A stretch of DNA of 64,000 bases. It comes from an uncultured Opitutaceae bacterium (GTDB lineage: Bacteria > Verrucomicrobiota > Verrucomicrobiia > Opitutales > Opitutaceae). Both the position numbers and the translations under genes were made by a program. The notes under the pieces were generated by a model, which was not told the origin of the DNA, ran no database searches, and saw only the letters and a program-made list of their open reading frames with translations. Where the stretch lies: contig CALAOT010000115.1 of the NCBI GenBank assembly GCA_937889545.1, forward strand, positions 1-64,000, given 5' to 3'. Of the stretch, positions 37,400 through 42,305 are shown in pieces (the first letter of the stretch is position 1; each line of letters starts with the position of its first letter).

Positions 37400-37512
37400 G
37401 ACGAAGCGCAAACTAGCCTGTTTCAGCCCTTCCACCAGTCCAAACGGGCGATTCGAGGAAGTTACACAGGAACGGGTTGCATCCCCTTGTGACCCGAGCC
37501 AATGTTCCGGGC

Positions 37513-39003
37513 ATGAACGGGCAAAAGGAACTCCTGACCACGAGTCAGAAGGCGCTCACGATCAACCTCGACGCGCCCAAGTACGGCACGTTTGCGGAGA
37601 TCGGAGCCGGCCAGGAGGTGGCGCGCGAGTTCTTCCAGGCCGGCGGGGCCTCGGGGACGATCGCCAAGTCGATCTCAGCGTACGACATGGTCTTCAGCGA
37701 CGCCATCTACGGAAAGGCGCCGCGATACGTCTCGCGCGAGAGGCTCAAGCTGATGCTGGACCATGAGTTCAACCTTCTGGTGGAGCGCCTTTCCGCGACC
37801 CGGGGTGACCGGACGAATTTCTTCGTCTTTGCGGACACCGTCGCGACGAGCAGCTACATGGGCTCCAACGAGCCTCACGGATGGCTGGGCTTCCGGTTCC
37901 AGACCGAGCCCAAGGGCGAGCCGAGCGAGATCGTCCTCCACGTCCGGATGTGGGACAAGGTGGCCGTGCTCCAGCAGCAGGCCCTCGGCATCGTCGGGGT
38001 GAACTTCATCTACGGCGCCCTGTATTACCGGGACGACCTCGGCAGGCTGATCGAGTCGTTCCGCGACAACCTCGGGACCGACCGGATCGAGATCGACATG
38101 CTGCGATTCTCCGGGCCCGCATTCGAAGACGTCGACAACCGGCTGATGTCGCTCTTCCTCGTCAAGCACGAACTGACGAACGCGGTCATGTTCGGCAAGG
38201 ACGGCGAGGTCCTCCAGCCGTCCGAAGTGCTGCACAAGAAGGCGATCCTCGTCGAGAGGGGCAGCTTCAGGCCGGTGACGAACGTGCACGTCGACATGCT
38301 CAACTGCGCCACGGCGCAGTTCGTGCAGGAGCCGCTCGCGAAGGGCAAGGACATGGTGGTCCTCATGGAGATCACCATGAACAACCTGCTCCTGGCCGGT
38401 GAGCTCGACGCGCAGGACTTCCTTTCCCGCGTCGACCTCCTGGCCGACATAGGATTCACGGTGCTCATTTCGAACTACTCCGAGTACTACCGGCTGACCT
38501 CGTACTTCCGCCGCTATACCAAGGAGATGATCGGCGTCGCGATGGGGATCAGCAACCTGGTCGAGATATTCAACGAGAAGTACTACGAGAACCTCGAGGG
38601 AGGGATCCTTGAGTCGTTCGGGCGCCTGTTCCGGAATTCGGTGAAGCTCTACATCTATCCGATGAGCAAGGAGGCCTATGAAAGGTACGTCTCCCAGGAG
38701 GGCTCCGGGCAGGGCTCCCCGGCCAACGCATTCAGCTCCAACGTCCTGATCACCGCAAAGAACGTCAAGGTAGTCGACCACCTCTCGAACCTCTACGCCC
38801 ACCTGCTCGAGAACCGCTACATCGACTGCATCGTCGGATTCGACTCGGACTCGCTGCACATATTCTCGCGAGACGTGCTTCGCCGCATCAAGGACAAGGA
38901 TGCGACGTGGGAGGACATGGTCCCGAAGCCGGTCGCGAAGGCAATCAAGCGCAGGGGCCTCTTCGGATACTCCGACCACCTGATTCTCGAGGGGAACAAG
39001 TAG
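37513..39003 (+). CDS. Large conserved cytoplasmic protein of unknown function
   Basis: The 496-residue product begins MNGQKELLTTSQKALTINL and continues with KYGTFAEIGAGQEVAREFF and GGASGTIAKSISAYDM. I recall close relatives in Bacteroidetes and Verrucomicrobia that carry unreliable names (TonB-dependent receptor, nucleotidyltransferase). This protein has no signal peptide, barrel or recognisable nucleotide-binding motif. It is rich in acidic and aromatic residues, with conserved blocks such as DTVATSSYMGSNEPHGWLG and MEITMNNLLLAGELD. No function can be assigned. It sits 1 bp before dapF on the same strand, so the two are probably co-expressed. Confidence 0.85.
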   Translation: MNGQKELLTTSQKALTINLDAPKYGTFAEIGAGQEVAREFFQAGGASGTIAKSISAYDMVFSDAIYGKAPRYVSRERLKLMLDHEFNLLVERLSATRGDRTNFFVFADTVATSSYMGSNEPHGWLGFRFQTEPKGEPSEIVLHVRMWDKVAVLQQQALGIVGVNFIYGALYYRDDLGRLIESFRDNLGTDRIEIDMLRFSGPAFEDVDNRLMSLFLVKHELTNAVMFGKDGEVLQPSEVLHKKAILVERGSFRPVTNVHVDMLNCATAQFVQEPLAKGKDMVVLMEITMNNLLLAGELDAQDFLSRVDLLADIGFTVLISNYSEYYRLTSYFRRYTKEMIGVAMGISNLVEIFNEKYYENLEGGILESFGRLFRNSVKLYIYPMSKEAYERYVSQEGSGQGSPANAFSSNVLITAKNVKVVDHLSNLYAHLLENRYIDCIVGFDSDSLHIFSRDVLRRIKDKDATWEDMVPKPVAKAIKRRGLFGYSDHLILEGNK

Positions 39004-39004
39004 C

Positions 39005-39856
39005 ATGCGATTCCACAAGTACCATGCCCTGGGCAACGACTACATTGTGCTCGACCCGGCCGACTTTCCGCAGTGGGCGAGGCCGAGCGAGGCCCAGATC
39101 CGCGTCATCTGCCACCGCAATTTCGGCGTCGGATCGGACGGGATCCTGTGGGGCCCCATTGCCTCCGAGACAGCTGACTTCGGCCTCCGCATCTTCAACC
39201 CCGACGGCTCCGAGGCGGAGAAGTCGGGCAACGGGCTCAGGATCTTCTCGCGCTACCTTTGGGACCAGTCGCGGGTGAAGGCGCAGTCGTTCGCGGTGGA
39301 GACGCCCGGGGGGGTCGCCCGCTCTGAGATAAGGGAGGAGGGCCGCCTGATCAGCGTCGCGATGGGCGCGGTGAGCTTCGACAGCCGCAGGATCCCGGTG
39401 GCCGGGACCGCGCGGGAGGTGATCGGCGAGTCGATCGAGGCGCAGGGACGCAGGTTCACGTTCTGCGCCGCGACGATCGGCAACCCCCACTGCGTCATCC
39501 CGGTCGACGAGCTTTCTCCCGATCTGGCAAGGCGCTACGGGCCCGACATCGAGATCCATCCCCTCTTCCCGAAGAGGACCAATGTCCAGTTCATGAGGGT
39601 GCTCGACCGTTCCAGCATCCAGATCGAGATCTGGGAGCGCGGCGCCGGCTACACACTCGCGTCGGGAACCAGCTCGAGCGCGGCCGCCGCGGTGGCCCAC
39701 AGGCTCGGCCTCGTGGACCGGTCGGTCGCCGTCCGGATGCCGGGAGGCACGCTCGACATCGAGATCGGCGACGGGTTCTCGATCCGGATGACGGGAACCG
39801 TGAACAAGGTTGCCGAGGGCGAGTTCGACCCCGAGCTCTTCGCGGTGACGGTGTAG
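39005..39856 (+). CDS. dapF: Diaminopimelate epimerase family protein with both catalytic Cys replaced by Ser
   Basis: The 283-residue protein has the full DapF fold pattern: FHKYHALGNDYIVLD at the start, FNPDGSEAEKSGNG, ATIGNPHCVIPVDE, TNVQFMRV, WERGAGYTLASGTSSSA and LPGG-like MPGGTLDIEI. DapF uses two cysteines as acid/base pair (Cys73 and Cys217 in E. coli) to convert LL- to meso-diaminopimelate. Here both positions are Ser (residues 74 and 220). The Glu of GAGET is Tyr, and the second Cys-rich segment (CGTGACA in typical enzymes) reads SGTSSSA. Either a serine-based variant exists in this lineage, the enzyme does another reaction, or another epimerase supplies peptidoglycan. Confidence 0.88.
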   Translation: MRFHKYHALGNDYIVLDPADFPQWARPSEAQIRVICHRNFGVGSDGILWGPIASETADFGLRIFNPDGSEAEKSGNGLRIFSRYLWDQSRVKAQSFAVETPGGVARSEIREEGRLISVAMGAVSFDSRRIPVAGTAREVIGESIEAQGRRFTFCAATIGNPHCVIPVDELSPDLARRYGPDIEIHPLFPKRTNVQFMRVLDRSSIQIEIWERGAGYTLASGTSSSAAAAVAHRLGLVDRSVAVRMPGGTLDIEIGDGFSIRMTGTVNKVAEGEFDPELFAVTV

Positions 39857-39956: not shown

Positions 39957-39978
39957 CCGGCCCGCCGGTGCTTTTTTT
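39957..39978 (+). terminator. Rho-independent terminator after dapF
   Basis: The hairpin CCGGC (39957-39961), CC loop, GCCGG (39964-39968) is followed by TGC and seven T (39972-39978). It lies about 100 bp after the dapF stop. It overlaps a possible GTG start at 39968 of the exosortase frame, which argues for the later start at 40019. Confidence 0.65.
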
Positions 39979-40018
39979 GGCCGTTGCGCGCCGTCCGCGG
40001 CGCACCCAGCATTCCCGG

Positions 40019-41629
40019 GTGACTGGTAGCGAGGCCACCCACCGGCTGCCGACCGCGGCGAAGCTTAATCTTGCGGCATTGGCGATCCTCGCCGCCGCGC
40101 TTGTGGCCCACCTGTGGCCCGAATGGTCCCACGACGCGGACCTTTCCCACGGATTCCTGGCTCCGATAGCCAGCGTGCTGCTGATCTACCTGTGCCGGAG
40201 CCCCGGCGCCCGCGGCACCCTGCAGGGCCCCACCTCCATGATCCTCGCAGCCTCCTTCGGCGCGGCGGCCCTGGCGGCCCTCTGGACGGCCGGCCTCTTT
40301 GCGGTCGCCCTCGATTGGACGAGCCCCCTCGTGGATTTCACGCTGGCGTGCTCGTTCGCGCTCCTCGGATGCGGGGCCATCGCCGCCTTCGCGGACCGGC
40401 GCGTGGCCCTGGTTCCGTTCAGCTGGGCCTGCCTTGCAGCGGCGGCCCTCTGGCCGCTGAGCTCGCCCATCCCCCCGGGAACGTACTCGCGCCTGACGTC
40501 GGGGCTGCAGCTGTGGGTCTCGGGCGGGGTGATGCACGCGCTCAATCTTCTCGGAATCGCGGCCCACAGGGAGGGAAACATCATCGAACTCGCGCGCGGG
40601 ACGGTCGGGATCGAGGAGGCGTGCAGCGGCGTGCGCAGCTTGGTCTCGTGCGTGTTCGCAGGCGTCCTCTTCTCCGCGGCGCTTGTTCGCACGCCGCGGG
40701 CGCGGGTCCTCATCATCGCCCTTTCCGCGGTCCTCGCGCTCGCGATGAACTTCATCCGCTCGCTGGTGCTCACGCTCCTCGTCAACGGAGGCGTCCACGT
40801 GGAGGGCGCCTGGCATGACCTTACGGGCTATTCGATCCTCGCCTTCACGGCGGCCCTTCTTGTCTGCGTCGCGGTCGCGCTCGAAAGGGCAACCCCTGCG
40901 CAGGGTCCGGCAGCGGAGACTGGGCCCGCTCCGCCCGGGGTCGAGGGCCCGCGGCGATTCCACGGCCCGCAAGCCGTGCTCACGTGTGTCCTCGCGCTGG
41001 CCGCCGCCTCGCTGGGCTTCTTCGCAGCAAACACCCACCCACCCGTCGGGAAGGACTCCTCTTCCCCCGACCTGCTGGCAGTCCTGCCTCCATCGGCGGC
41101 GGGTTGGAGCGTGCAGACGACCCCGGGCCTGGACCGGTTTGTCGGCATCCTCAGGACTGACCACCTTGCGCAGCGCACGTACGTCCGCGGGGCGGCCGGC
41201 GGCGAGGACCAGGTCGCGCTCTTCCTGGCGCACTGGTCCAGGGGGCAGGCCTCCGTCGGGCTAGTGGAGTCCCATACCCCCGACGCTTGCTGGCCCGGAT
41301 CGGGGTGGGTGGCGCAACCCATTGAAGATTCGCATGTTGCTCTTGACATCGGCGGCAGCCGGCTGCCGTGGGCGCAGCATCGCCTCTTCGTCAATGGCGG
41401 GTATCCCCAGCACGTCTGGTTCTGGCAGATCCACGACGGCCGCGCGATCGAGATCGGAGACCCGTTCTCCCTGAAGGCGCATCTCGCGATCGCGCTGCGT
41501 TTCGGGTTCCGGGCCAGCGGCGAGCAGGTGTTCATCCGGGTCTCCAGCAACCGTCCCTGGGACGAGATTTCGCGCGAGCCCTTCCTCGCCGAGTTCTTCG
41601 AGCGTGCCCGCCCCCTCGGGCTTCACTGA
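40019..41629 (+). CDS. Exosortase fused to an EpsI-like C-terminal domain
   Basis: The 536-residue protein is a membrane transpeptidase-like enzyme predicted to cut C-terminal sorting tails of exported proteins. The first 300 residues contain about eight helices with exosortase signatures: the SHGFLAP block near residue 45, catalytic Cys in EEACSGVRSL (Cys202), Arg in NFIRSLVL and His in WHDLTGYSIL. The rest is an EpsI/DUF3485-like domain with PDACWPGSGW, fused as in several exosortase types. The VPDG-CTERM protein at 2690-3322 is a likely substrate. The GTG at 40019 is preferred because an earlier GTG (39968) lies inside a terminator. Confidence 0.92.
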   Translation: MTGSEATHRLPTAAKLNLAALAILAAALVAHLWPEWSHDADLSHGFLAPIASVLLIYLCRSPGARGTLQGPTSMILAASFGAAALAALWTAGLFAVALDWTSPLVDFTLACSFALLGCGAIAAFADRRVALVPFSWACLAAAALWPLSSPIPPGTYSRLTSGLQLWVSGGVMHALNLLGIAAHREGNIIELARGTVGIEEACSGVRSLVSCVFAGVLFSAALVRTPRARVLIIALSAVLALAMNFIRSLVLTLLVNGGVHVEGAWHDLTGYSILAFTAALLVCVAVALERATPAQGPAAETGPAPPGVEGPRRFHGPQAVLTCVLALAAASLGFFAANTHPPVGKDSSSPDLLAVLPPSAAGWSVQTTPGLDRFVGILRTDHLAQRTYVRGAAGGEDQVALFLAHWSRGQASVGLVESHTPDACWPGSGWVAQPIEDSHVALDIGGSRLPWAQHRLFVNGGYPQHVWFWQIHDGRAIEIGDPFSLKAHLAIALRFGFRASGEQVFIRVSSNRPWDEISREPFLAEFFERARPLGLH

Positions 41630-41666
41630 ACTGCACCGGAACCCTGGCGCCCGCCCTCCCGACACG

Positions 41667-42305
41667 ATGCCGACGGATGAATCAAGGATCGAGCTGCCCG
41701 CATGGCTTCCGTGGGCCACGACCGCATGCCTCGCGGCGCTGGTCGCGTGCCTGGGGGAGCTCTGGGTCATCGAGAGGGCAAGATCCCAGCTCCTTCGGGA
41801 GGAAGGCATGCTCACCGAGGCCGCGCTGAAGGGAATGCAGAACCAGCTGGAAGCGGAGCGGATTGTGAACAGGCGGGAGCTCGCCGGCCTGCGTGCCGCT
41901 TCCGGCCAGCAGGCGGGCCTCCGGGTCGCCCTGCTCCTGGCGCCGGAAGGCAGCCCCGCGCGCGCGCCGGTGTTCCGCTTCGGCGCCGTGGCGTGGGATC
42001 CGGCGGGAAGGCGCGCCCTGCTCAGGCTCTACGGCTTTGCCGAGCAGCTGCCGGAGAGGGACTGCCAGCTTTGGCTGGCAGGCCCGGGGACGGGGAACCC
42101 GTCCAGTTGCGGCGTCTTCCACGCGCCTCCGGGCGATGACGGACCGGGCATCGCGATCACGATATCGGGTGCGTTGGCGCCCGGATGTCGCTTCCTCCTG
42201 GTCGACGGGCCCAAGGGCGGGGCTCGAACCTTTGAGGAGGCCCAGGCCGGCGGCTCGATCGTACTTGCCACGCTCCCCTTGGGCGAAAACATCTTACGTA
42301 GATGA
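41667..42305 (+). CDS. RskA-like membrane-anchored protein without a zinc-binding anti-sigma head
   Basis: The 212-residue product has one N-terminal membrane helix (WATTACLAALVACLGELWV, residues 13-31). A short coiled-coil stretch and a periplasmic domain follow. The domain resembles the C-terminal domain of anti-sigma-K factors: FGAVAWDPAGRRALLRLYG, CQLWLAGPG, SGALAPGCRFLLVDG. The first 12 residues are too few for the usual cytoplasmic zinc-finger (ZAS) domain, and no sigma factor gene is adjacent. It lies 37 bp after the exosortase gene and overlaps fabV by ATGA. Confidence 0.7.
   Translation: MPTDESRIELPAWLPWATTACLAALVACLGELWVIERARSQLLREEGMLTEAALKGMQNQLEAERIVNRRELAGLRAASGQQAGLRVALLLAPEGSPARAPVFRFGAVAWDPAGRRALLRLYGFAEQLPERDCQLWLAGPGTGNPSSCGVFHAPPGDDGPGIAITISGALAPGCRFLLVDGPKGGARTFEEAQAGGSIVLATLPLGENILRR

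Follow-up and report, generated by a model that had tools for sequence, protein, structure and literature searches.

Diaminopimelate (DAP) epimerase, DapF, serves as a model for racemisation without a cofactor, and standard teaching ascribes its mechanism to a cysteine thiolate/thiol pair. Serine is a poorer base than cysteine by both pKa and desolvation (PMC8142540), and Cys-to-Ser mutations are said to hinder catalysis in DapF-like enzymes (PMC12039745). In the histidine racemase HisR, a relative of DapF, the single mutants C67S and C209S lose most of their turnover (PMC11602996). Serine does occur naturally in the proline racemase superfamily, for which the accessible part of the source describes a 4-hydroxyproline 2-epimerase with a Ser-Cys dyad (B9JQV3) and a trans-3-hydroxyproline dehydratase with a Ser-Thr dyad in which the serine is catalytic (B9K4G4), and describes no Ser/Ser epimerase (PMC4113996). 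Together, these two enzymes of a sister superfamily indicate that a serine in this fold can be an alpha-carbon base. Our search of the open-access literature, to which it was confined, found no mention of a Ser/Ser DapF.

The window studied here, a 64,000-nucleotide stretch from an uncultured Opitutaceae bacterium, carries a dapF-family gene of just this Ser/Ser type at 39005..39856 on the forward strand, with its ATG at 39005, a stop codon ending at 39856 and a product of 283 aa. The protein matches the Pfam family DAP_epimerase (E 3.5e-55) and no other, and scores as a full-length DapF with the NCBIfam equivalog model (234.8 bits, cut-off 114.65). It nonetheless lacks the two catalytic cysteines of DapF. 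Ser74 (codon 39224..39226, forward strand) stands in place of Cys73 of the E. coli enzyme and Cys75 of the Anabaena enzyme, and Ser220 (39662..39664, forward strand) in place of Cys217 and Cys224, respectively. This equivalence was established by aligning the protein with the DapFs of P. aeruginosa and Anabaena and by a multiple alignment that takes in the E. coli enzyme, and it bears out the initial annotation, which had placed serines at both catalytic positions and read the CGTGACA block of ordinary DapF as SGTSSSA. Its further claim of an otherwise well-conserved fold agrees with an AlphaFold2 model (pLDDT 92.5), which predicts the two pseudosymmetric domains of DapF and superposes with VIA-align on P. 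aeruginosa DapF 8qzy with Z 36.8 and an rmsd of 1.7 Å over 271 residues, and on E. coli DapF with Z 35.8. Ser74 and Ser220 lie in the model immediately N-terminal to helices 75-87 and 221-233, like the cysteines of known DapFs.

Apart from the catalytic pair, the active site is close to that of a DAP-binding enzyme. In Anabaena DapF with bound inhibitors, DAP is contacted by Asn13, Asn66, Gly76, Asn77, Asn164, Asn197, Glu215, Arg216, Gly225 and Thr226 (PMC12039745). By alignment, all ten of these non-catalytic contacts are kept here, as Asn11, Asn65, Gly75, Asn76, Asn160, Asn193, Glu211, Arg212, Gly221 and Thr222, and they are likewise kept in the aligned chromosomal Ser-type sequences, with Thr or Ser at the Thr226 equivalent. 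Measured in this way, the Ser form is more DAP-like than several Cys-type DapFs from elsewhere in the Verrucomicrobiota, in which the contact at Asn164 has disappeared. The only active-site residues that differ from Anabaena are Cys75, Cys224 and Gly227, each of them altered to serine. The last of these, Ser223 (39671..39673, forward strand), is Ser in 141/141 Ser-type and Gly in 36/36 Cys-type sequences; in Anabaena, the amide of Gly227 is within hydrogen-bonding distance of the second catalytic sulfur (PMC12039745).

The glutamate of the GAGET motif is replaced by Tyr216 (39650..39652, forward strand), as the initial annotation had noted, but this residue does not hold as a mark of changed chemistry. 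Cys-type enzymes have Glu, Ile (Anabaena), Tyr (Ilyobacter, with both cysteines present), Pro (Paenibacillus) or Val at this position, and Tyr216 is therefore no sign of altered catalysis. More characteristic of the Ser clade are the fixed or near-fixed residues Tyr6, Lys73, Ile80, Glu208 and Ser223, which set it apart family-wide from the Cys-type DapFs of Verrucomicrobiota (M6Y, M73K, C80I, R208E and G223S). Two cysteines were considered as substitute bases. Cys163 was set aside, as two Ser-type members have Val in its place. Cys36 is present in every Ser-type sequence (141/141) but is shared by 20 of the Cys type, and is therefore not specific, although it could still act as a base.

The serine pair is a property of a lineage. 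Among 177 distinct proteins drawn from the loci compared, 141 carry the serine pair, 36 carry the cysteine pair and none combines the two, a pattern far beyond chance; the Ser-type proteins come from Opitutales and from scattered other families of Verrucomicrobiota. Of 388 Verrucomicrobiota genomes searched with a degenerate DNA pattern of the second motif, 78 contain the Ser form, with the same distribution, and the reversed control pattern gave no match. Most sampled Opitutaceae genomes carry the Ser form. Near relatives with the cysteine pair, which the initial annotation held would point to mutation or error, were looked for: the same-genus relatives are all Ser/Ser, and a Cys-type DapF takes the place of the Ser type only in some other Opitutales genera (G020, G025, G031 and G043). 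The Ser/Ser proteins form one clade in two trees (support 100/99, and all 200 bootstrap trees), figures obtained with each long-branch plasmid protein, discussed below, added alone. A search of viral contigs found no relatives.

Selection appears to hold the serines in place. Site 74 is encoded by TCN in 109 and AGY in 32 of the 141 sequences, and site 220 by TCN in 138 and AGC in three. The TCN and AGY families are more than one base apart, which suggests that serine itself is selectively kept. Pairwise dN/dS among near relatives is ~0.1-0.35, indicating purifying selection.

The LL-DAP aminotransferase DapL makes LL-DAP, and the DAP decarboxylase LysA and the meso-DAP type of MurE consume meso-DAP. 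The source genome (92% complete, 128 contigs) encodes DapL (546 bits), LysA (431.6 bits) and MurE (515 bits), the last with a DNPR motif, which we take to be typical of meso-DAP-adding ligases. No match to the meso-DAP dehydrogenase Ddh was found in this genome at E 0.001. With LL-DAP produced, meso-DAP used and Ddh absent, an epimerase is needed. The second, Cys-type dapF for which the initial annotation advised a search was not found; the Ser/Ser gene is the sole DapF-family copy in the genome. The same is true of eight single-contig genomes that are 98-100% complete (G015, G016, G032, G072, G169, G186, G318 and G321), one of which, G015, also has Ddh. For this large group of bacteria, a conserved DapF free of thiols is the one candidate for the epimerase. 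GC/MS has revealed DAP in Opitutus terrae and in three strains of Lacunisphaera, all Opitutaceae, and the annotation of strain IG16b includes both DapL and DapF (PMC5303756); the DapF of these strains may be the Ser form common in their family.

Gene presence and absence tell a similar story. Ddh occurs in 10/11 Verrucomicrobiota genomes examined that have no DapF and in 3/38 Ser-type Opitutales genomes (Fisher p 4e-7), and, when the comparison is kept within Opitutales, in 4/5 and 3/38, respectively (p 0.001), statistics that treat genomes as independent and ignore relatedness; the 38 genomes are at least 90% complete, with type assigned by motif or at least 44% identity. Ser-type and Cys-type genes occur together in 5/289 genomes where ~43 would be expected under independence, relatedness again being ignored. 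In those five (L155, L225, L226, L227 and L228; Ser-type genomes outside Opitutales) the Cys-type gene stands apart as a divergent paralogue, and contamination affects two of the assemblies, both of them large. The complementarity with Ddh and the near-exclusion with Cys-type DapF suggest that the Ser form fills the slot held elsewhere by one or the other. The divergent paralogue itself has the motif LCGNGTAC and a long branch. Two further genomes deserve mention. A 97%-complete Opitutaceae genome (G033) has DapL, LysA and MurE, and neither DapF nor Ddh was found in it, which may reflect an assembly gap or a further route to meso-DAP. A reduced Opitutales genome of 0.9 Mb (G042, locus L181) has a divergent Ser/Ser DapF and no LysA, DapL or MurE match over the cut-off.

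We consider it probable that this gene encodes the cell's working DAP epimerase with a changed chemistry, a reading that draws on conservation, single copy, pathway context, binding site and predicted fold. Against it stand the losses seen in the HisR mutants, the weakness of serine as a base, the possibility of an unrelated racemase, and G042 with none of the three partner enzymes. The initial annotation spoke of changed chemistry or function. A change of chemistry is likely, as we infer, but a change of function is not supported for these genomes, since the DAP contacts are kept and the pathway demands a DAP epimerase.

We propose a model where LL-DAP from DapL would be converted to meso-DAP by the Ser-type DapF, and then passed to LysA for lysine and to MurE for peptidoglycan. 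Ser74 and Ser220 would take the place of the two-thiol acid/base pair, each at the N-terminus of the helix that the cysteine precedes in ordinary DapF, and their hydroxyls, activated by helix dipoles and local hydrogen bonds, would remove and return the proton. The family-specific Ser223, at the position where the Cys form has a thiolate-hydrogen-bonding Gly, is perhaps among the activating contacts, and a neighbouring residue or water may aid proton transfer. That the serines are themselves the bases is speculative; an overlooked side chain or a water may act in their stead. As for the full proposal, in which a whole lineage uses an acid/base pair of two serines and no thiol to epimerise DAP within the DapF fold, and needs neither catalytic cysteine nor cofactor nor metal, we put its chances at about even.

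It could instead be that this is a DapF-fold protein that does not epimerise DAP at all, having a binding or regulatory role or another reaction, and that an unrelated racemase makes meso-DAP. The loss of both catalytic thiols and the strong impairment of the Cys-to-Ser mutants of a relative would fit such a protein. So would the chromosomal surroundings, which form no DAP operon and are not conserved between families. Upstream, a conserved ORF of 497 aa (37510..39003, forward strand), which has no Pfam match and by that measure is not a DAP-pathway gene, ends 2 bases before dapF; where a relative's locus reaches far enough upstream, the ORF occurs on the same stretch as dapF in roughly half of the cases. 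Directly downstream comes a fusion of an EpsH-family exosortase with a DUF3485 domain (39968-41629), and after it a protein whose RskA_C domain is anti-sigma-K-like (41604-42305). Guilt by association gave no lead in Verrucomicrobiota, where the flanks of dapF vary between families and hold no DAP genes. However, if the protein did not epimerise DAP, many families would all have to possess one undetected enzyme that does. The protein also keeps every DAP contact, and this alternative fits poorly with the complementary occurrence of DapF and Ddh and with the near-exclusion between Ser-type and Cys-type genes. We regard it as unlikely.

A second alternative is that the enzyme acts on DAP or a close analogue with a changed outcome, such as one-way or one-base epimerisation, elimination, or another stereoisomer or substrate. 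Dehydration, not epimerisation, accompanies the Ser/Thr dyad of the proline racemase superfamily (PMC4113996), and enzymes with Cys/Thr pairs act one way or carry out eliminations (PMC8142540). Ser/Ser relatives on plasmids point the same way. One from Streptomyces sp. NBC_01216 (WP_327378980.1) and one from Agrobacterium vitis (WP_180608185.1), both with a DapF annotation, have both serines and, when each was added alone as a check on a long-branch warning, still joined the Ser/Ser clade (100/99). In a survey that took in Verrucomicrobiota and plasmids, the Ser/Ser state thus extends beyond that phylum; plasmid "DapF" proteins from Rhizobium and Sinorhizobium are of the Cys type. Both plasmids share a gene order (L247:7308-13006 in Streptomyces and L248:7177-13113 in A. 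vitis) of iron-containing redox enzyme, 2OG-Fe dioxygenase, DapF-like protein, molybdopterin oxidoreductase and aldo/keto reductase, with an EamA transporter nearby, which looks like a small biosynthetic pathway for a small molecule. Unlike the chromosomal Ser-type proteins, the plasmid proteins have lost the Asn160 contact and kept Gly223, and from these residues they probably act on a substrate other than DAP; the Ser/Ser state may also predate Ser223. For the chromosomal form, however, a changed outcome is harder to sustain. DAP offers no beta leaving group, all DAP contacts are present, and the protein is the only candidate epimerase, so we hold this alternative to be improbable.

Local mutation, pseudogene decay or sequencing error, for which an assembly in 128 contigs might give some cause, is scarcely credible and is refuted by clade-wide Ser/Ser, given identical residues in 141 distinct orthologues of independent assemblies, an intact frame and purifying selection; the initial annotation was right to set random decay aside, as both serine codon families and the single copy also attest.

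Beyond its biology, a conserved and apparently needed cysteine-free form asks whether the thiols of DapF are required at all, and it lets nature itself test the argument that cysteine is preferred for its pKa and desolvation. If DAP is indeed epimerised by this thiol-free enzyme, it would resist both oxidation and thiol-directed DapF inhibitors, and such inhibitors would miss part of the Verrucomicrobiota. The annotation "diaminopimelate epimerase" also covers two active-site classes.

Among known systems, PhzF works without a cysteine pair, using other active-site residues, and catalyses an isomerisation; the Ser-type DapF shares its two-domain fold (Z ~24) but is only ~15% identical to the PhzF family. 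The serine enzymes of the proline racemase superfamily are alike in overall fold, in the natural loss of one or both thiols and in having serine at the first site. They differ in family and substrates, with 11-16% identity between our protein and the structures of proline racemase and hydroxyproline epimerase, and their Ser-Thr enzyme with a structure is a dehydratase. Closest is DapF itself (TIGR00652), as known from E. coli, H. influenzae, P. aeruginosa and Anabaena, with which the Ser form shares length, fold (Z ~33-37), DAP contacts, a catalytic pair at helix N-termini and a slot in the pathway, and from which it differs in having serine for both catalytic cysteines and for the glycine three residues past the second site.
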